In this document: positions 23,316 through 46,950 of the stretch, in pieces | Position numbering within the stretch: position 1 is the first letter of the stretch | How the letters are laid out: each line of letters begins with the position of its first letter | Assembly (NCBI GenBank): GCA_903851445.1 | Contig: CAINOH010000009.1 | Coordinates: 149,908-213,907, forward strand | DNA length: 64,000 nucleotides | Origin: an uncultured Microcaldota archaeon | GTDB lineage: Archaea; Micrarchaeota; Micrarchaeia; Norongarragalinales; CAINOH01 | Direction: 5' to 3' | Made by a program: the position numbers and the translations under genes | The notes under the pieces: generated by a model | Seen by the model: the letters and a program-made list of their open reading frames with translations, nothing else | What the model was told of the DNA's origin: nothing | Databases searched by the model: none

Positions 23316-24182
23316 TCAGCCGTGCACCGGGCACCCTTGCCGCCGCTCAACCGAAAACACGGCCTGCGTATTGCGGACTCCGTCGTAAAAAAGGTATTTG
23401 CCTACGAGCGTGTTGCCAAAAAGCCATTTCGCCTGCTCGACATTGCTTTGCCCGCCCTGTTCTTCTCCGACGACTTTGGGCTGCGGCTTTCCTCCCTTCC
23501 TTTCAAGGCTTGCCGCACAGTGCACCAGCTTTATCATCTCGTTTACCTGCAGGGCCGCTATGATGCTGTTTGTTGTGGAGAGCGCAGGGGTCTTGGGGTC
23601 GATGAAGTCCAGCGGGTCGCCGACGCAGGAGTATTTGCGCCACAGGAACTGGTAGTCCTGCTCGCTCATCGCGCACTCAAGGCACGCCGAGGGCGCTATC
23701 ACCACCTGCACTTTCCCGAAAAACCCCGTTGTGCCCCCGTCAATGAGCGGGACCTTACCGTAACAGTGCGAGTTCAGGTGCAGCCTGGCGCCGAGGTTGT
23801 CGAGGCAGGAGAACACGTAATCGAATTGCGAGTAGAAATTTTCAGGAAGCTCCTCAACATTTTTTAGTATCGGGGTAATCCTGATTTTCTTGTTTATAGA
23901 GCGTGCGCGGGTTGCGATGACGCGCGCCTTGAAAAGGCCGTTCGCCGCGTCCATCGGGCAGAAGAAGACGCAGCGGTTGAGGTTTGCCTTGACAATCCTG
24001 TCAAAGTCAACAAGGGTTATTCTGCCTACGCCGATTTGCGCAAGGCCCTTGACCACCTCGTTGCCAAGCGCGCCCGCACCCACCACCAGCACGTTGAGCT
24101 TGGATATCGCATCCTGGTCCCAGCCAGCTATGCGCTTCTGGCGGTCGAACTGGTCCGCATCTATACTTGGCTTTTCGAGCAT
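23316..24182 (-). CDS. E1-like ubiquitin-activating enzyme (ThiF/UBA family)
   Basis: LNVLVVGAGALGNEVVKGLAQIGVGRITLVDFDRIVKANLNRCVFF; PLIDGGTTGFFGKVQVV; CLEC ... C-terminal CPVH. Confidence 0.93.
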   Translation of the reverse strand: MLEKPSIDADQFDRQKRIAGWDQDAISKLNVLVVGAGALGNEVVKGLAQIGVGRITLVDFDRIVKANLNRCVFFCPMDAANGLFKARVIATRARSINKKIRITPILKNVEELPENFYSQFDYVFSCLDNLGARLHLNSHCYGKVPLIDGGTTGFFGKVQVVIAPSACLECAMSEQDYQFLWRKYSCVGDPLDFIDPKTPALSTTNSIIAALQVNEMIKLVHCAASLERKGGKPQPKVVGEEQGGQSNVEQAKWLFGNTLVGKYLFYDGVRNTQAVFSVERRQGCPVHG

Positions 24183-24582: not shown

Positions 24583-25518
24583 CTAATCAAACAGCTTCTT
24601 GATTGCGCGCACCGCGTCCTCTGACGCTTTGTCCATCCGGATCTGGAGTTTTTTGCCGCAGCGCACGCACGAGTTCTGCGAGTTGACCAGGTGCTCGTAG
24701 CAGTCCTTGTGGTAGGCCGCGCCGCAGAAGCAGTAGCCGTACTTGGGGTTGTTCTCAAGGGCGTTGACTGACAGGCGGAACGGCGCCTGGCAAAGCTCGC
24801 ACGCGCCGGCCTGCGTGGTCTTCTCAATCATTTCCTTTACCGCGTCCCTCCCGCCAAGGGACTCGACCTGCTTTTCGAACGGAATTGCCTGACCGGTTGG
24901 CGATGCCGCGATTGCCGTCTGGATTCTTGCCGCCACGCCGTTGCCGTTCTTTGGCGAGCCCTTGCGCAGCATTTCAAACAGGTCGAGGTCTGCCTGTTTT
25001 GCTGGCTTGTGCCCGGGACCCGGGACGTAGAATAGCGAGCTGTCGTTCTCTGTGAGCTTTGGAGTGGGGGGGTTTTTTGGTTCTGAATAACTGTTCCCAG
25101 AAGAATCGGTTTTTTCTGCTGGCAACCCCGGGGTGACCGTCTTTGCTTTCTTCGCTTTCTTTTCCTCTGAAGCCTTCCTTTTTGCAAGCTCGTCATACCC
25201 TGATATTCCCAGCCGGAATACGCTGGGATTCGCGCTGTCGCGGCACAGAAACCCCTTGGAGCAAAGGAAGTCCGCGCGCTTTGCAAACTGCAGCGGGTCA
25301 ACCCCAGTAAGCAAAAGAAGCGAGTCCTGGGAGTTGTTTCCGGACTTGACCATCTCAAAAAGGTCGATGTCGAACAAGAGAAGCTTTTTCGGCGTTCTCG
25401 GCGGCTTGACTGCCGCTTGCCTTGCGGGCCTTGCTTTCGCTTGCTCGGGTTTTCTCATGCTCGGTTCGTTCGTGGGTGTTTCCATGACGCTTTGCCACCG
25501 TGCGCCAGCTTTCGACAA
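24583..25518 (-). CDS. RING-type zinc finger protein, candidate E3 ubiquitin ligase
   Basis: C-terminal CELCQAPFRLSVNALENNPKYGYCFCGAAYHKDCYEHLVNSQNSCVRCGKKL = C-x2-C-x18-C-x-C-x4-H-x2-C-x10-C-x2-C (C4HC3). Confidence 0.82.
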   Translation of the reverse strand: MSKAGARWQSVMETPTNEPSMRKPEQAKARPARQAAVKPPRTPKKLLLFDIDLFEMVKSGNNSQDSLLLLTGVDPLQFAKRADFLCSKGFLCRDSANPSVFRLGISGYDELAKRKASEEKKAKKAKTVTPGLPAEKTDSSGNSYSEPKNPPTPKLTENDSSLFYVPGPGHKPAKQADLDLFEMLRKGSPKNGNGVAARIQTAIAASPTGQAIPFEKQVESLGGRDAVKEMIEKTTQAGACELCQAPFRLSVNALENNPKYGYCFCGAAYHKDCYEHLVNSQNSCVRCGKKLQIRMDKASEDAVRAIKKLFD

Positions 25519-25564: not shown

Positions 25565-26029
25565 TCAGGGTATGGCCGCGAATGAAATTTCACGGTAGCG
25601 CGGCGATTGTGCGGGTTCCAGCCGGTAAACCCGCTTTTTTGCGCCGCCTGCGGAAAGCGGGTCTACCACCACCGCTATTGACTGCGGGTGGTCAAAATAA
25701 CGCTGTTGCGTCGCAATGTCGGTGTGTGAAAGGAAGCACCCAAGGCCCGGGTGCGAATGAAGCCAGCCTACGACCACTTGACGCGCGTTGACTGCCGTAA
25801 AGAGCTTGGATGAAAGCTCGCCAAACGATGCTTCGGAAAACCTGACGGACACCGATGACGCTTCGTTCGGCGCGGTCACATACCCCTCGACAAGGACCCA
25901 AGACCGGCCCCTGCTCTGGCAGAACCTGCCGACCAGGAGACCCATCGTCTCAACGCGAACGCTGGCACCGGACTTTGCGTGGGAGAGCGCGGAGTCGAGC
26001 GCGGACTTGCGGAAGTAAACGTCGTACAC
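25565..26029 (-). CDS. JAB/MPN (JAMM) metalloprotease, Rpn11/CSN5-like deubiquitinase
   Basis: VETMGLLVG; VVGWLHSHPGLGCFLSHTDIATQQ = JAMM motif H-x-H-x7-S-x2-D. Confidence 0.93.
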   Translation of the reverse strand: MYDVYFRKSALDSALSHAKSGASVRVETMGLLVGRFCQSRGRSWVLVEGYVTAPNEASSVSVRFSEASFGELSSKLFTAVNARQVVVGWLHSHPGLGCFLSHTDIATQQRYFDHPQSIAVVVDPLSAGGAKKRVYRLEPAQSPRYREISFAAIP

Positions 26030-26180: not shown

Positions 26181-29100
26181 CTATTGCTGCTCCTTTTCTT
26201 CTGCTGCCTCGGAGTCTTTCTTCTCGGGCTTTGGGACCGCTTCACCCAATATCTTCCCGCGGAGCTCCTCCATGAGATCCATCGCCTGCTTGTCCGCCTC
26301 TGTTTGCGCGCTGAATTCCGCATCACTTTGGGGTGCAAACTCCGATTCGCGGTATTGCTGCACCCTCTGGGCGGGGCGGGCGGCTGGCCGGAAGGAGGGC
26401 GTATGGCCCCCGAGCGGCTCTCGGCGGATTGATTGCTCGGCATGGGGTGCGTAATATTCCTGATGCCGCTGTTGCGGCGGCGAAACGTACTGCGTGGCCT
26501 GCCGCTGCACAACGGGTTGCGGTTGCCTGACGAATTGCGACTGCTGCCTTGGGAACTCGGCGGCGCGCGGGGGCGCTGCGGGCGCCTTGGTTTCCATTTC
26601 AGCAAGGGCTTTTTCCAGGTCTGAAAGGCCGGATTTGAGTGCATCCGCCTGTTGCTCTGCTGGGCCGGGTGATTCTGCAACTGCGCGTTCTGCGGTTGCC
26701 TGGACGGGCGCCTGCCTTGCGATCGCCGCACGCGGAGCGTTGGCGACACCCGACACATTGTTACGGCTGGCGTCAAGTTCCCTCGAAAGCGAGGCAATGT
26801 TCTCAAGCGCAACAAACAGGTTTGCAACCTTCTGCTCCAATAGCGCGCTCGATGCCTTGACTGACGCACGTTCCTGCTCCTGGCGGAGCTCCCCTGCGCC
26901 CATTGCGGAACGCAAGGATGCGACCGTCTTGTTGGTTTCGGATATCGAGGCGACCAGCTGCTCCGTGGAGGATGCTGACCGTGCGGCAATCTGTTCTATT
27001 GAAGATGACGAACGTGCGAGGCCCTCGACGGATGCTGAAAGTTTCGCATCGGCGTCCTGGCTTGCCTTGGCTGATGCTTCCTGGGCTTTGCGCAGCCCCG
27101 CAAGCTCCGCTGCAACGTCGGTTTTCGTGGCGGAAAGCAACTCCGAGATTGAGCGTGAGAAGGCGTCCTGCGTGTCCATACGCTCGGCCATTCCCGCGAT
27201 GTTTTTTTCGGAATCTGCCTTCTGCATAGCCAGCTGGGCTGTTGATGCCGCTGAACGGGACAGCGCTTCGATTGACGCTGCTGAACGCGCAAATCCGTCG
27301 GATACTGCGGCGGTAAGCCGCGAGTCCGTGTCTTGGAGGGTTCTTGCCAGTTCGTCTTGGGCTTTGCGCACGCACGCCAACTCGTTTGAAAGGTCTGCTT
27401 TCGTGGTGGAAAGCTGCTCTGAAATTGAATGTGACAATGAATCTGCCGCACCAGCACGTTCAGACAGCGCGTCCTGGGATTTGCGCAGCCCCGCAAGCTC
27501 CGCTGCAACGTCGGTTTTCGTGGTGAAAAGCTGTTCTGATATTGAGTGCGAGAATGCGTCCATCGCGCCAGCGCGTTCAGACAGGGCTGCAATGGCTTTT
27601 TCGGAATCGCTCTTCTGCGCCGCTAGGCCTGCACGCAGGTCATCTATCGAATGTGAGGCCTGGGACTCGCGCACCTCAAGGGTCGCTGTAAGGTCCGCTT
27701 GGCGTTTGTCAAGCGCGGCTATGGCCTCGGCCTGCTTCGAGTCAAGAGCTGAAAGTGCCTGGGTTTGCTGGGCCTCGAACGCCGCAAGCATCTGCGACTG
27801 GCTGGACTCGAAGGTTTTGACTGACGTGGATGTTTTTGACTCGAAATCGGAAATGATTTTCGACTGCTGTGCCTCGAACGCGGCTGTTGCTGAGGATTGT
27901 CTCTTTTCAAAATCGGCCAATGCCCAGCCCTGCTTTCTCTCGAACCCAACGGTTGCCTCGGTCTGCTTCTTTTCAAAATCAGTCAGCAGTCCGTCCTGTT
28001 TTTTCTCGAAACCGACAATCTTTGCCGCCTGCTCGGCCATCCTTGCGCCCTGCTTTGTGTCAATGGCGGAAAGCGCTTCCGCATGGCGCGACTCTGATGC
28101 CGCCACTGCAAGCCGGATCTTTTCCGGCACCGCGTCACGGAACTCGGTGAATTCGAGTGTCTGCTGGCCCGTTGCCTGTTGCGCCTTCAAAAGGCGCTCT
28201 GCTGTCTGCGAAAGCTTCGCGTCAACTGCCGCAAGGGCTTTTGCCTGTCGCTCCTCGGCAGCAGTAATAACACCTATTTTTTCAGGAAGCGTGGTCTTGA
28301 GGCCGGAAAGGTCGGCACCGAGGCGGTCGGACTGGGTCTGCAGCTGCGAGAACCGCTGCCCCACTATCGTAGAAACGTTGTTTTCGGTTTCCGCAAGCTT
28401 GGACGACAACAGTTCGGTCTGCACCTTGAGCTCGTTGAGAAGCGTCTTGGTTTCTTCCACCTGCGTCTGGGAGAACTGCTCGTCCGCAACTGCGGCAGCC
28501 TGCTTTTCCGAAATTACCGATGCAACTTCCTGCATAAGCTGTGATTGTGACGAGGATAGCGCGTCTACTTTTGCCGAGACGCCCTCTGCCTGCGTTTTCC
28601 ATTCGCCAAGCTCGGCATCTAACCCCTCAAGGCGTGCGAGCCTGGTCTCGAGCTGCCGGAGGCTGTTGGCGTTTTCTGGCGCGGTAAACTGCGTGTTTGG
28701 GTCATTGCCACCATCTCCGGCGTTTGACGCGGGGATGTGAAGGGAGAATATGCTCCGCTCAAGCGCGTCGACTCGCGAAAGAAGGTTGCCGGCCTGGCTG
28801 GGCGTTGTTGTTGCGCTTGCAAAAGTCACGCGGCCGTCAGCGGACGCAAAAACTTCGTTGGATGGGGAACCTGCAACTTGGAGCGCGTCCACCTGGGCCT
28901 TGAGCTTCGACACGCTCTTTGAAAGGTTGGAAAACAACACCGTGTTCTCGTGCTCTATTGAATTGATTTTGGCGCCTAGGGCGCCAAATCCCTTTTCCAC
29001 AACCGCTATGCGTGCAGCGTCCTGGCCGCCCGAGATGCCTTCCATCCTGTGCTTGAGTTCGGAAAACCCGGTTGTGACGTTTACAAAAAGGGCGGCGTTG

Positions 29101-30521
29101 TTGGCCTCGGAATCCCTGACCTTGCCCTCGACGCGCAAGATGATTTCTTCCATGCTGGCGATTTTTGCCGCCTGCTCCTGGAATGCCTCGGCCTTCTTTG
29201 CAAGGTCGGCCACTGTTGACGAAAGCGCGTTGGTCTCGTCTATAAGGCGCGTTTGCTCGGCACGGGTGGCGCCCGTGCTCTGCAGCGGCTCTCCGGGAAC
29301 GCGCGGGCCGCCCGCTTGCGACGCCTCGTACTGCATGCCGGTTATCATCAAACGTGTTTCTGCGACTGCGCGCGCGTTCTGCTCGACTTTCTGCGAAAGC
29401 TCGGCGGCAATCCTGCGGTAGTCCGCAATGCCGTGCTCGTGCTCGGCCTTGAGCGCGCTGATGTCGCGGAGCACCGCGTCGTGGGTGGAATTGATGGTGT
29501 CTGACGTGAGCTTGTATTCCGAGAGATTCTTTTGGATCTCTGAAAACACGGCTTGCATCTTGTTGGACTGCGCGGTAAGCAGCCGTTCAACCGCCTTTAC
29601 CTGCTCGTAGTTTGCGGAGACCTCGGCGCGGGTCTTTTCAAGTTCCTTTGAGTAGTCGCCCAAGACCGCCATGCCGGTGCCGGCGCGCAGCTCCGCAATT
29701 GCTTTTTCGTGGGCGTCTACTTTCGCCTCCACGCCAGTCGCGCCTTGCGGTCCGTAGGCAGCTGCACCGCCCGCGACCATGCTGTTTAGCCGGTCAACCG
29801 ATGTGGACACCTGCGATACTGTGTCGCGGAGCGAGTCGATGGAAAGTCGGAGCTGCTGGCGGTCCACGTCAGCCATCTTCGAGTATTTCTCGAATTGCGC
29901 ACGCGACATTATCTGCTCCGAAGGGTAGTCCGACTTCAGCGCTATCTTACGTTCAAGCTCCGCTATCTTGTTGTGCGCCGCGTCGGTCTTGATGAAGTAG
30001 TCCTTGTCCCGGTCCGCCCATGCTTTTAGCTGCTCGAGCGCGACTTCCATCGGCCGCAGGCGTGAGGACTGCTCGGTGTACTCGGCCTCGAGCTTGCGCA
30101 CCGCGCTTGAAATACCGGACTCTGCTGGCTTGTCCGCTGAGCCCTGCAGACCTGTTTGTTTGATTGTTGAAAGTTGTGCGCGCAGGTCGGAAATTTCAGA
30201 CCCCAGCTTGTCGGGCTGGACGCGGTCTATTATGGTGATAATCTGCTCTGCCTTTGACTGCGCGGCCTGGATGTTGTGTTCAAGAGCCGAGACGCGGTCC
30301 GAAAGCTGGGAGAGTCCCTGGCCGAACGAAGCGAGCGCGCCTTCGGTCTTTTGCCTAAAATCAGGCGGACCGCCTGCTGCTGCATTGGTGTTTTGCTGGC
30401 TTGTTGCTGTGAAAGCGGCAAACGGGGCTTGGCCTGCGGGGCTTGTGCTGGGCGCTTGAGGCGCGTTTTCCTTTTGAGCTGCGTTTTTTTTCAGAAAATC
30501 GTCCAAATCCAATACTGGCAT
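26181..30521 (-). CDS. Giant (1446 aa) hendecad-repeat coiled-coil protein with P/Q-rich C-terminus
   Basis: Repeats of type xFExKQxxxxx (DFEKKQTEATV/GFERKQGWALA/DFEKRQSSATA/AFEAQQSKIIS...) over most of its length. Confidence 0.85.
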   Translation of the reverse strand: MPVLDLDDFLKKNAAQKENAPQAPSTSPAGQAPFAAFTATSQQNTNAAAGGPPDFRQKTEGALASFGQGLSQLSDRVSALEHNIQAAQSKAEQIITIIDRVQPDKLGSEISDLRAQLSTIKQTGLQGSADKPAESGISSAVRKLEAEYTEQSSRLRPMEVALEQLKAWADRDKDYFIKTDAAHNKIAELERKIALKSDYPSEQIMSRAQFEKYSKMADVDRQQLRLSIDSLRDTVSQVSTSVDRLNSMVAGGAAAYGPQGATGVEAKVDAHEKAIAELRAGTGMAVLGDYSKELEKTRAEVSANYEQVKAVERLLTAQSNKMQAVFSEIQKNLSEYKLTSDTINSTHDAVLRDISALKAEHEHGIADYRRIAAELSQKVEQNARAVAETRLMITGMQYEASQAGGPRVPGEPLQSTGATRAEQTRLIDETNALSSTVADLAKKAEAFQEQAAKIASMEEIILRVEGKVRDSEANNAALFVNVTTGFSELKHRMEGISGGQDAARIAVVEKGFGALGAKINSIEHENTVLFSNLSKSVSKLKAQVDALQVAGSPSNEVFASADGRVTFASATTTPSQAGNLLSRVDALERSIFSLHIPASNAGDGGNDPNTQFTAPENANSLRQLETRLARLEGLDAELGEWKTQAEGVSAKVDALSSSQSQLMQEVASVISEKQAAAVADEQFSQTQVEETKTLLNELKVQTELLSSKLAETENNVSTIVGQRFSQLQTQSDRLGADLSGLKTTLPEKIGVITAAEERQAKALAAVDAKLSQTAERLLKAQQATGQQTLEFTEFRDAVPEKIRLAVAASESRHAEALSAIDTKQGARMAEQAAKIVGFEKKQDGLLTDFEKKQTEATVGFERKQGWALADFEKRQSSATAAFEAQQSKIISDFESKTSTSVKTFESSQSQMLAAFEAQQTQALSALDSKQAEAIAALDKRQADLTATLEVRESQASHSIDDLRAGLAAQKSDSEKAIAALSERAGAMDAFSHSISEQLFTTKTDVAAELAGLRKSQDALSERAGAADSLSHSISEQLSTTKADLSNELACVRKAQDELARTLQDTDSRLTAAVSDGFARSAASIEALSRSAASTAQLAMQKADSEKNIAGMAERMDTQDAFSRSISELLSATKTDVAAELAGLRKAQEASAKASQDADAKLSASVEGLARSSSSIEQIAARSASSTEQLVASISETNKTVASLRSAMGAGELRQEQERASVKASSALLEQKVANLFVALENIASLSRELDASRNNVSGVANAPRAAIARQAPVQATAERAVAESPGPAEQQADALKSGLSDLEKALAEMETKAPAAPPRAAEFPRQQSQFVRQPQPVVQRQATQYVSPPQQRHQEYYAPHAEQSIRREPLGGHTPSFRPAARPAQRVQQYRESEFAPQSDAEFSAQTEADKQAMDLMEELRGKILGEAVPKPEKKDSEAAEEKEQQ

Positions 30522-31106: not shown

Positions 31107-31213
31107 GTTGAAATCGGTGCCAAATGCTTAGAGAAAAGAGGCTGGCGCAAAAATAAATATCGGCATACTGGACTGCGGCGCGCTTTTTAAGTTTGAGGCT
31201 GAAAAGTAGTGTT

Positions 31214-31456
31214 ATGGCCGAATACAACATCACTGTTGTCCACACCACGAGCGGAAAGGAGACGCTTCTCGCTGTTGAGGAGGCGTTCTCGGTCGCGTCC
31301 GTGCTCGAGGTGCTTGCTGAGAGTCTTCACCTTAAGGACCGCTTTGTGCTTGCGACCAAGGAAAACAAGATACTCGACCCGCAACTTACCCTAAAGGATG
31401 CGGGTGTTGCTGCGGGTGCTGTGCTTCTTCTGATGCCAGACCCAACTGGCGGCTGA
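31214..31456 (+). CDS. Ubiquitin-like beta-grasp protein with terminal Gly-Gly (80 aa)
   Basis: MAEYNITVVHTTSGKETLLAVEEAFSVASVLEVLAESLHLKDRFVLATKENKILDPQLTLKDAGVAAGAVLLLMPDPTGG*; Ub-like length and TLKDAGVxxG..L region; stop directly after GG; TATA-like CTTTTTAAGTTT upstream. Confidence 0.88.
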   Translation: MAEYNITVVHTTSGKETLLAVEEAFSVASVLEVLAESLHLKDRFVLATKENKILDPQLTLKDAGVAAGAVLLLMPDPTGG

Positions 31457-35949: not shown

Positions 35950-36438
35950 TTGTTTTGTGATTTTTTGGACCAACAACCCGCCACGACCAGCCCCGAAAGC
36001 GCAGCCAGCCTGACCACCCAGATAAAGCACACCGTCTCGAAGAGGAAAAGAACGGGCAAGACCGCGGACCACTACGCCCGGCAAAAGGCCACGTGCTACG
36101 CGTATTTTCGGGTGAACATCGACGAGCAAAAAAAGACCAAGGCCGCGCAATACACGATTTACGACTTCGTCAACGACTCGTTCCACTTCTCGCCAACCAA
36201 AAAGGAGTTGACCATCCGCGTGCTTGAGGCGCTGAAGGAAAAGCCCATGGACTTTACGGAGCTCGCAGCGCGCCTTTCCGCAAAAAAGAGCACGCTTTAC
36301 CTTTTGCTTACCGCACTTCACCGGTCGGGCCTCATTGACCGCGAGACCAAGCGCCAGCCCTACCGGCTTTCCATATCCTTCTCGTCGATGCTTCGCGAGT
36401 ATTCATATTGGTGGGAGAACTGGGTGCGCATAAATTAG
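35950..36438 (+). CDS. Winged-helix transcription factor-like protein
   Basis: PMDFTELAARLSAKKSTLYLLLTALHRSGLIDRETKRQPYRLS. Confidence 0.6.
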   Translation: MFCDFLDQQPATTSPESAASLTTQIKHTVSKRKRTGKTADHYARQKATCYAYFRVNIDEQKKTKAAQYTIYDFVNDSFHFSPTKKELTIRVLEALKEKPMDFTELAARLSAKKSTLYLLLTALHRSGLIDRETKRQPYRLSISFSSMLREYSYWWENWVRIN

Positions 36439-42176: not shown

Positions 42177-42512
42177 ATGCCGGCGCAGGACGACGTGGCA
42201 TCGAAACTGGCCCTCTTGCAGGCCGACGTGGAGCAGCTGTGCTTGGAGCTTGACGAGCAGAAAAAGGCGCGCGCGGCGCTGGAAGCCAAGGCGGCTTCAC
42301 TTTCCGACGGGCTTTTAGAGGCGCGTTCAGATTACGAGGCGCTGGAAAGGAAACAGGCCGAACTGCGGCTGTCCGTCGAGCGTTCGTCCGCGCTTCTTAA
42401 GGCAATCGAGCCCGAAAAGCTCGCGGTGGAGCTTTCCCGGCTTTCCTTTGCGGTAACCTGCCTTCGCGACAGCCTGCGGCGGCACGAAACCGATGGAAAG
42501 CAGCTAGTTTGA
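42177..42512 (+). CDS. Small coiled-coil protein upstream of E2
   Basis: MPAQDDVASKLALLQADVEQLCLELDEQKKARAALEAKAASL... Confidence 0.6.
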   Translation: MPAQDDVASKLALLQADVEQLCLELDEQKKARAALEAKAASLSDGLLEARSDYEALERKQAELRLSVERSSALLKAIEPEKLAVELSRLSFAVTCLRDSLRRHETDGKQLV

Positions 42513-42597
42513 CTGCAGCCCCGGCTTTCGTCAATGCGCGCCGCAGTAGAAGCTTATTCTTTTGCCTCCTATCTAGTAATTCGAGTGCGTGTACTGT

Positions 42598-43068
42598 ATG
42601 CCCCAGCTTCCTACTGAGATTTGGAGACGCAGGATAGAAAGCGAGTACAATCAGCTGCGCAGCCGGGGCTTTGACTTCGACGTGAACCCGGACCACACGG
42701 AATACACTTTCCGCATACTTGGCGATGCGTTGTGCGTGAGGGACGGTGCGCTTGTGCCCGTCAACAGGCACGTGGTATTCCTGCGGCTTGCGCGCGAATA
42801 CCCTTACGCCGGCGGGTTTGAGCTTGTCTGGAAGACGCCGATTTTTCACCCAAACATCGACGAGAAGGGGAAGGTGTGCATCCGGCTTGTGAACCTCTGG
42901 GCTGCGGGCCAGACCGTGGCAAGCATCGTCGATGCGCTTGTGCAGCTTTTGGAAAACCCGAATCCCGACTCGCCGCTAAACTACGAGGCGGCCCAATATT
43001 ACCTTGAGAACCCCAAGCCAAAGGCAACAGCGGGCTTCCGGCTTTCGCGGCCAAAGATAGTTGGCTGA
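42598..43068 (+). CDS. E2 ubiquitin-conjugating enzyme (UBC fold)
   Basis: TPIFHPNIDEKGKVCIRLVNLWAAGQTVASIVDALVQLLENPNPDSPLNYEAAQYYLEN: HPN motif, catalytic Cys, conserved W and PNPDSPLN. Confidence 0.95.
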   Translation: MPQLPTEIWRRRIESEYNQLRSRGFDFDVNPDHTEYTFRILGDALCVRDGALVPVNRHVVFLRLAREYPYAGGFELVWKTPIFHPNIDEKGKVCIRLVNLWAAGQTVASIVDALVQLLENPNPDSPLNYEAAQYYLENPKPKATAGFRLSRPKIVG

Positions 43069-43167
43069 ACCGGTCAGCGCAAAACAGCAGGGTGGGCTGT
43101 TGCTGTTGGAAGGGTTGAAAAAAGCGAGTTGCCTAAAGAATGCGCAGAGCCTGTTTTGTGGTTTCAA

Positions 43168-44562: not shown

Positions 44563-45093
44563 CTATAAAACCCGGTGGCTTGGCTTTTCTTTGCCCCAGC
44601 CGAGGATGACGTGCGCCCAGACGAGCACGACAACAACCGCATCCGCAAACCACAGCAACACGTGCGCGGGGTCGAACGCGCCGGCACCCAGGGTTGTTTC
44701 TGCCCAGACTGCAAACAGCACTCGCGCGATGTTGAACGCGAACAGGAACGGCGCGTAAAACGCAAGGGCGTAGGCAACCGCCCTCATTTTCATTTCAGAC
44801 GCATATAGTGCGGAAGCTAGCAACGCCATCATCACCAACCCGGTGCACTCGATTGCCATCGAGTATTTCGCCGCGCCGGCAACCACCGTAATTCCCTGCG
44901 CGGTTGCGGTTATCCCAACAGCCGAAAGGAGCGGCACAAGCGAGAGGGCAACAAGGCGCTGGAGCGGGTAAAGAAGGCCGGGCAACGCATAGTCGATTGC
45001 GTGGATTGCAGCGTAGAGCAGAAAGAACGCAGCCAGGAACCGGAGGATGAAGCGCTTCTCGTCCGTTGGCCTTCGCGGGTTATGCACAGCCAA
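44563..45093 (-). CDS. Archaeosortase/exosortase family protein
   Basis: Polytopic; AIECTGLVMMALL (Cys), FNIARVL (Arg), PAHVLLWF (His). Confidence 0.8.
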   Translation of the reverse strand: MAVHNPRRPTDEKRFILRFLAAFFLLYAAIHAIDYALPGLLYPLQRLVALSLVPLLSAVGITATAQGITVVAGAAKYSMAIECTGLVMMALLASALYASEMKMRAVAYALAFYAPFLFAFNIARVLFAVWAETTLGAGAFDPAHVLLWFADAVVVVLVWAHVILGWGKEKPSHRVL

Positions 45094-45810: not shown

Positions 45811-46950
45811 TTGTTTATGAAATCTTATCGTTTCAGGGTGTATGCGAACAAGCAGCAGGATGCGGTGATGCGCCAGCACTTGTGGGCTTCGAAGAACTTG
45901 TGGAACAGCGGTTTGACACTGGCAAAGCAGATGTACGACGATTTTGGTAAGTTCCCAACCCGAAAGACACTTCAAGAGATAAGCAAGGATTCAGGATTGT
46001 ATTCGCAAGTGGCGCAGGGTGTTTTCGTTCGTCTTTCTCTCGCGTTAAAAGCTAATACTAGACGCAAGAAGGCGGGGTTGAAAGGCGGTTTTCCGCGTTT
46101 CAAATCTTTCGATAGGATGAAGAGCTTGCATTATCCGCAGTCTGGTTTCGAGTTGTTACCGAACAAAAAATTGCAAGTCACTCCTTTCGGCAAGTTGAAC
46201 ATCAAACAACACCGCCCAATTGAAGGTAAAATCAAGGCGTTGACGCTGAAGCGGGAAGCTTCTGGCAAGTGGTTCGCCATTTTCACAATAGAACAGGACG
46301 AGATAGTGCCGTTGGTGAACAACGGTGGGCGAGTGGGCATCGACTTGGGTTTGACTACGCTCGCCACGCTTTCAAACGGGTTAAAAATAAAGAATCCACG
46401 TCATTTTGATGGGCATCGGGAGAAGTTGGCGAAGTTGCAGAGACGTTTGTCAAGGGCGTTGAAGGGTGGCAAGAACAGGCGCAAAGCCAAGTTGAAAGTT
46501 GCATTGGCACACGAGAAGATTGCCAATGTCCGCAGGGACTTCTTGCACAAGGCCACCGCCAACTTAGTGAATTCATATTCCTTTATCGCGTTGGAAGAGC
46601 TTTCCAGCCAGAGGATGGCGGAACAAAATTTCGGCAAGCAAATCAATGATGCGGGTTGGGAAACGTTCGCGGGCATGATTGCATACAAAGCGGTGGAAGC
46701 TGGTTGCAAAGTAGTGTTCGTGAACCCGAAGAACACTACACAAGAGTGCAGCGGTTGTCACGAGTTAGTCAAGAAAGATTTGACCGTGCGAGTACATGAT
46801 TGCTCGCACTGCGGCCTAGTGCTGGACCGTGATGTGAATGCTGCAATAAACATACTCGTCAGAGCTACCGTCGGAACGACGGAAAGTAACGCCTGTGAAG
46901 ATGGAGCGATAGTTCCGTCTGTGAAGCAGGAAGCCACGACTTGTCAGTAG
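45811..46950 (+). mobile_element. tnpB: Solo IS605-family TnpB (RNA-guided nuclease-like), RuvC residues intact
   Basis: GIDLGLTTLATLS (RuvC-I), FIALEELS (RuvC-II), CSGC..CSHC zinc finger, DRDVNAAINI (RuvC-III); no TnpA ORF nearby. Confidence 0.95.

Follow-up and report, generated by a model that had tools for sequence, protein, structure and literature searches.

A ubiquitin-conjugating enzyme encoded apart from the E1-RING-JAMM-Ubl gene cluster of a micrarchaeal genome, and its probable origin within that cluster

The operon of Caldiarchaeum subterraneum encodes the same five kinds of components as those described here, i.e., an E1, an E2, a RING protein, a ubiquitin-like modifier (Ubl) and a JAMM metalloprotease (PMC5654768, PMC6043591), and its E1/E2/RING cascade has been reconstituted in vitro (PMC5654768). 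In the E2 of C. subterraneum, the loops L4 (PxxPP) and L7 (D/ExWSP) are the features that contact the E3 (PMC5654768). Clusters with some of these components are also found in Lokiarchaeia (JAMM-E1-E2; L204-L207), and E1-Ubl-E2-JAMM operons are widespread in Methanomassiliicoccales and the other Thermoplasmata loci that we fetched (L208-L257). In the open-access literature, to which the search was confined, we found no earlier description of ubiquitin systems from Micrarchaeota. In the 64,000-nucleotide stretch of micrarchaeal DNA analyzed here (the window), the following features were identified:

23316-24182, minus strand: E1-like activating enzyme of 288 aa with a ThiF fold; PF00899 (2.4e-44), alignment and Uba1/Uba3 profile matches
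24583-25518, minus strand: protein with a winged helix and a RING-like domain (wHTH-RING), candidate E3; alignment and wHTH model
25565-26029, minus strand: JAMM/Rpn11-like metalloprotease, candidate deconjugase; PF01398 (3.1e-15)
31193-31456, plus strand: Ubl ending in PDPTGG; YukD (1.8e-5), alignment and PDB profile matches
42177-42512, plus strand: coiled-coil ORF, 111 aa plus stop; codon score, no convincing ortholog in the order
42598-43068, plus strand: E2 (UBC fold), 156 aa; PF00179 (6.3e-18), 26-genome alignment, AlphaFold (AF2) and Foldseek

The gene at 42598-43068 encodes a genuine ubiquitin-conjugating enzyme. Its ORF starts at the ATG at 42598 (an alternative GTG is at 42589) and ends at 43068. 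The original prediction of a UBC-family protein was borne out by the match of the product to UQ_con (PF00179), which scored 65.2 bits (E = 6.3e-18) and thus exceeded the curated Pfam cut-off of 27 bits. The AF2 model (pLDDT 88.7) has the UBC fold, and a Foldseek search with this model returned 369 solved E2 chains at E ≤ 1e-3, with UBE2L3 and others at E ~1e-8. The landmarks include HPN at residues 84-86, the catalytic Cys94, which is placed 10 residues past the HPN His as in members of the UBC family, Trp101, a PNPDSPLN block and a C-terminal PKIV tail, the latter modeled with low confidence as expected for a flexible tail. In the alignment of 26 E2 orthologs, H84, P85, N86, C94 and W101 are invariant. 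The catalytic core is intact, and Cys94 would be the residue that forms a thioester with E1-charged Ubl. The HPN, Cys, Trp and PNPDSPLN features on which the original prediction was based are all present in the window sequence. Its description of them as entirely eukaryote-like is accurate for the catalytic core, but not for the E3-contact motifs, as PxxPP is absent from all 26 E2s of the order and WSP from 25 of them. The L4/L7 loop motifs of the Caldiarchaeum type are thus missing, or nearly so, from these proteins. Eukaryotic E2s (e.g., UBE2L3, UBE2D and RAD6) share the fold, HPN, catalytic Cys, Trp and PNPDSPL block with the window E2, but are only ~25% identical to it and have unlike E3-contact loops.

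The E2s of the order share a feature at their C-termini. All 26 end in P[RK][IV][IV], which is placed 0-4 residues from the C-terminus and follows a linker of variable length. A similar tail (P[RK][IV][IVL]) was found in 16 of 55 archaeal E2s from outside the order, nearly all of them from Methanomassiliicoccales and their relatives. Six E2s of the Asgard type have an acidic-hydrophobic C-terminus instead. The Thermoplasmata/Methanomassiliicoccales loci thus resemble the system described here in the HPN and tail of their E2s, and their E1s mostly match the E1 profile at ~1e-60 to 1e-80. Their clusters differ, however, in having another gene order with all genes on one strand and no match to the order's RING profile. 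In the Lokiarchaeia clusters, the E1 and JAMM match the profiles strongly and the E2s are ~32-36% identical, but the E2 tail is acidic-hydrophobic (DDIIIIDD) and no match to the order's RING profile is found nearby. The E2 of a contig titled Bathyarchaeota (L202) closely resembles that of Sigynarchaeum (L203), and this contig is possibly a mis-binned Asgard contig.

The other four components share several features with those of Caldiarchaeum, with which the system has in common the HPN and catalytic Cys of the E2, the D/NR/K adenylation residues and zinc cysteines of the E1, and a JAMM. The window E1 contains a GAGALG loop, NLNR, Lys85, a CxxC...CxxH zinc site and a conserved Cys186, and the adenylation residues, zinc site and Cys186 are invariant in the E1 alignment. 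Its profile matched Uba1/Uba3 (~1e-34) ahead of MoeB (8e-26) and UBA5 (2e-20). Most sister E1s are 244-288 aa long, and in all of them no more than a few residues follow a CPVH-type motif, which means that they lack a C-terminal ubiquitin-fold (i.e., E2-recruiting) domain. Thus, of the catalytic Cys and C-terminal UBL/ubiquitin-fold domain that characterize an E1 of the Caldiarchaeum type, Cys186 is present but the domain is not. The candidate E3 also departs from the small RING-H2 protein of Caldiarchaeum, as its eight Cys/His zinc ligands, which are invariant in the alignment, are in C4HC3 order and lie behind a winged helix. It matched zf-RING_2 at 0.028, below the Pfam cut-off. The model of its wHTH resembles MarR (Z ~11), and a fold search with the protein was filled by matches to the winged helix, with a single weak match to the RING of TRIM21 (E = 0.015); matches to cullin winged helices were weak (E ~0.1). 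The JAMM carries the metal-binding motif of a Glu plus H-x-H-P...S-x2-D, with Glu27, H91-x-H93, Ser101 and Asp104 invariant among 27 orthologs. The Ubl, whose ATG start is probably at 31214, matched YukD just below the cut-off, and its profile matched ubiquitin chains in the PDB. The diglycine is invariant in 26 Ubl orthologs, and nearly all have the PDPTGG ending. Most of them end exactly at GG without the pro-peptide found in Caldiarchaeum. Seven of the 26 extend past GG by up to ~18 residues (e.g., L141:3020-3316, L149:921-1205 and L135:7478-7762), and these would need to be trimmed.

The sample includes 29 genomes from the order Ca. Norongarragalinales (Micrarchaeota), to which the MAG LFW-144_1, type material for Ca. 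Norongarragalina meridionalis (PMC8561730), also belongs. Each of E2, E1, wHTH-RING and Ubl was found in 26 of these 29. The window genome (G000) is the sole member of its family in this sample. All parts of the system are absent from G004 and G022, while the sets in G026, G014 and G024 are partial where a contig end cuts the cluster; the E1 match in G014 is only a distant ThiF relative. Proteasome genes were found in all 29 genomes. The other genomes searched of the same class yielded no E2. Among 301 genomes searched across the phylum, a single E2 match came from beyond the order, and this was a fragment interrupted by two stops (E = 1e-3). A DNA-pattern search of the genome contigs with the single window E2 gave no matches, while the alignment-based search succeeded. 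No second E2 was found in the window's own genome, a 1.09-Mb draft of 25 contigs that is 81% complete, a result in favor of the original prediction, which a second E2 next to E1 elsewhere would have contradicted. The possibility raised with that prediction, that E1 and E2 are inherited independently, is contradicted by their co-occurrence and by their being neighbors in the sister genomes, in nearly all of which the E2 lies inside the cluster.

In the window, the end of the Ubl gene (31456) and the start of the E2 gene (42598) are separated by 11.1 kb, consistent with the ~11 kb estimated originally. In Caldiarchaeum the E2 is not displaced in this way, and in most genomes of the order the E1, E2, Ubl-GG, JAMM and RING are likewise encoded together. 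The commonest gene order in the sister genomes is E1(+) RING(-) JAMM(-) Ubl(+) E2(+), and in 24 of the 25 other E2-bearing genomes the E2 gene is directly downstream of the Ubl gene on the same strand, with a spacing that ranges from an overlap up to ~1.2 kb. In G005, G009 and similar sisters, the genes past the end of E2 encode a Zn-ribbon protein, a PRC-barrel protein, two unknown proteins and enolase, and dCTP deaminase and/or TFE and Trm56 are also encoded near the cluster in sisters of this type. In the window, the interval from Ubl to E2 contains the genes for Zn-ribbon and PRC proteins, the genes at 35950 and 36641, and those for dCTP deaminase, enolase, TFE and Trm56. As these are the neighbors found on the E2 side of the cluster in the sisters, the E2 gene appears to have been displaced within a conserved neighborhood. 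The cluster breaks up occasionally, given that the E2 of G015 is likewise separate from Ubl, on a 19-kb contig that does not carry Ubl, and that the E1 of G006 (L130:4973-5764) is on another contig than its E2, Ubl, JAMM and RING (L129), well away from them. The original suggestion that operon-based finders would miss this E2 therefore holds for the window genome and at least G015, but not for nearly all of their relatives, whose E2 is inside the cluster. In addition, the E1 gene of the window is inverted relative to RING and JAMM, unlike in the sister genomes. Downstream of E2, a MacB/FtsX permease gene is confirmed at 43129, and an exosortase-family membrane protein gene (44563-45093, minus strand; PF09721, 1.4e-7) lies beside a CDP-archaeol synthase gene. 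A gene for an IS605-type TnpB/OrfB (45811-46950, plus strand) is located 2.7 kb downstream of E2; we would only guess that it could have helped the rearrangement.

Taken together, the window E2 is very probably the single E2 of a five-part system (E1, E2, wHTH-RING, Ubl and JAMM) inherited across the order, an ortholog of the Ubl-adjacent E2s of the sisters that was shifted by ~11 kb through local rearrangement. Comparison among the genomes establishes, at the level of sequence, its orthology, its co-occurrence with the other components, the former adjacency and the invariance of the catalytic residues. An assembly join is an unlikely source of the split between Ubl and E2, because one 452-kb contig carries both the E2 and the cluster and because the intervening genes are the old neighbors of the cluster in the sisters. 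The location outside the cluster might also be explained if the E2 had arrived by horizontal transfer and did not descend from the ancestral E2 of the order. In the E2 tree, however, the window E2 groups with those of G005/G020 (support 96/85) inside the clade of the order, a position on which we reject this origin. It is also 42-52% identical to the sister E2s and no other E2 is found in the genome, which makes a horizontal origin extremely improbable.

The 112-codon coiled-coil ORF upstream of E2 was originally proposed to be paired with it. The ORF exists (111 aa plus stop), and with a codon score of 0.37 per codon, compared to 0.21-0.75 in reference genes, and coding-like GC3, it is not a chance ORF and is probably a real gene. 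Its being on the same strand as E2 with a gap of 85 bp and coding-like codon use would fit a new functional pair (e.g., with an adaptor or a dedicated E3) that drew the E2 away from the cluster. The pairing itself did not hold up, though: none of the sister E2s has an ortholog of the coiled-coil protein as its neighbor, and the order as a whole yielded no convincing one. Its weak matches (E from 6e-5 to 0.08) were mostly to long or unrelated ORFs, none of which adjoins an E2, and we rejected it as a conserved E2 partner on that ground. In G015, which has the other displaced E2, the gene upstream is a weak MazG-like match instead. Such a pair is therefore very unlikely, and membership of the coiled-coil protein in the Ubl system is unsupported. 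Another coiled-coil protein, of 1446 aa, is encoded between JAMM and Ubl (26181-30521, minus strand), where the antisense plus-strand ORF is not coding-like; no similar genes were found in the sister clusters examined.

Given that the window E2 is the ortholog of the cluster E2 in the sisters, its predicted function together with E1, RING and Ubl, as was also assumed originally, is well supported by orthology, co-occurrence and adjacency in the sisters. By analogy to Caldiarchaeum, a sequential E1-E2-RING cascade is most likely. In such a cascade, E1 would adenylate the C-terminal Gly of Ubl and hold Ubl on its conserved Cys, from which Ubl would pass to Cys94 of E2. With the HPN Asn, and with wHTH-RING positioning the E2~Ubl thioester, Ubl would then be transferred to substrate lysines, and JAMM would trim the C-terminally extended Ubl precursors where these are present and remove the tag. 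The presence of proteasome genes in every genome of the order makes tagging for proteasomal degradation possible. As PxxPP and WSP are not conserved, the E2-RING step is the weakest of the proposed mechanism; judging from the related archaeal system, wHTH-RING probably promotes the transfer to lysines, but this is its least secure part.

The E2 might instead work mainly without RING, transferring Ubl directly, with wHTH-RING acting as a transcription factor or other regulator. This would be in line with the missing RING-contact motifs, with the resemblance of the winged helix to MarR repressors and with the Thermoplasmata loci, where direct transfer would be needed as no RING-profile match is found. 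On the other hand, the RING gene is kept next to JAMM in 26 of the 29 genomes, its zinc ligands are invariant, and RING stimulates a related archaeal E2 (PMC5654768). We therefore regard RING-independent action as unlikely, and RING-assisted transfer as the preferred reading. It is possible, though doubtful, that the linker and P[RK][IV][IV] tail of the E2 serve as a docking peptide for E1, Ubl or wHTH-RING, replacing the ubiquitin-fold domain of E1 and the RING-contact loops; if so, a minimal E1-E2-E3 cascade would here recruit its partners by a logic of its own.

A complete E1-E2-RING-Ubl-JAMM system, together with proteasomes, is conserved through one DPANN order, so that ubiquitin systems of a eukaryote-like kind are now known from a wider range of archaea than Asgard and Caldiarchaeum. 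Judged from its sequences, the cascade would apparently work without an E2-recruiting domain on E1 or classical RING-contact loops on E2, so that the minimal requirements for ubiquitin transfer may become testable with this system.
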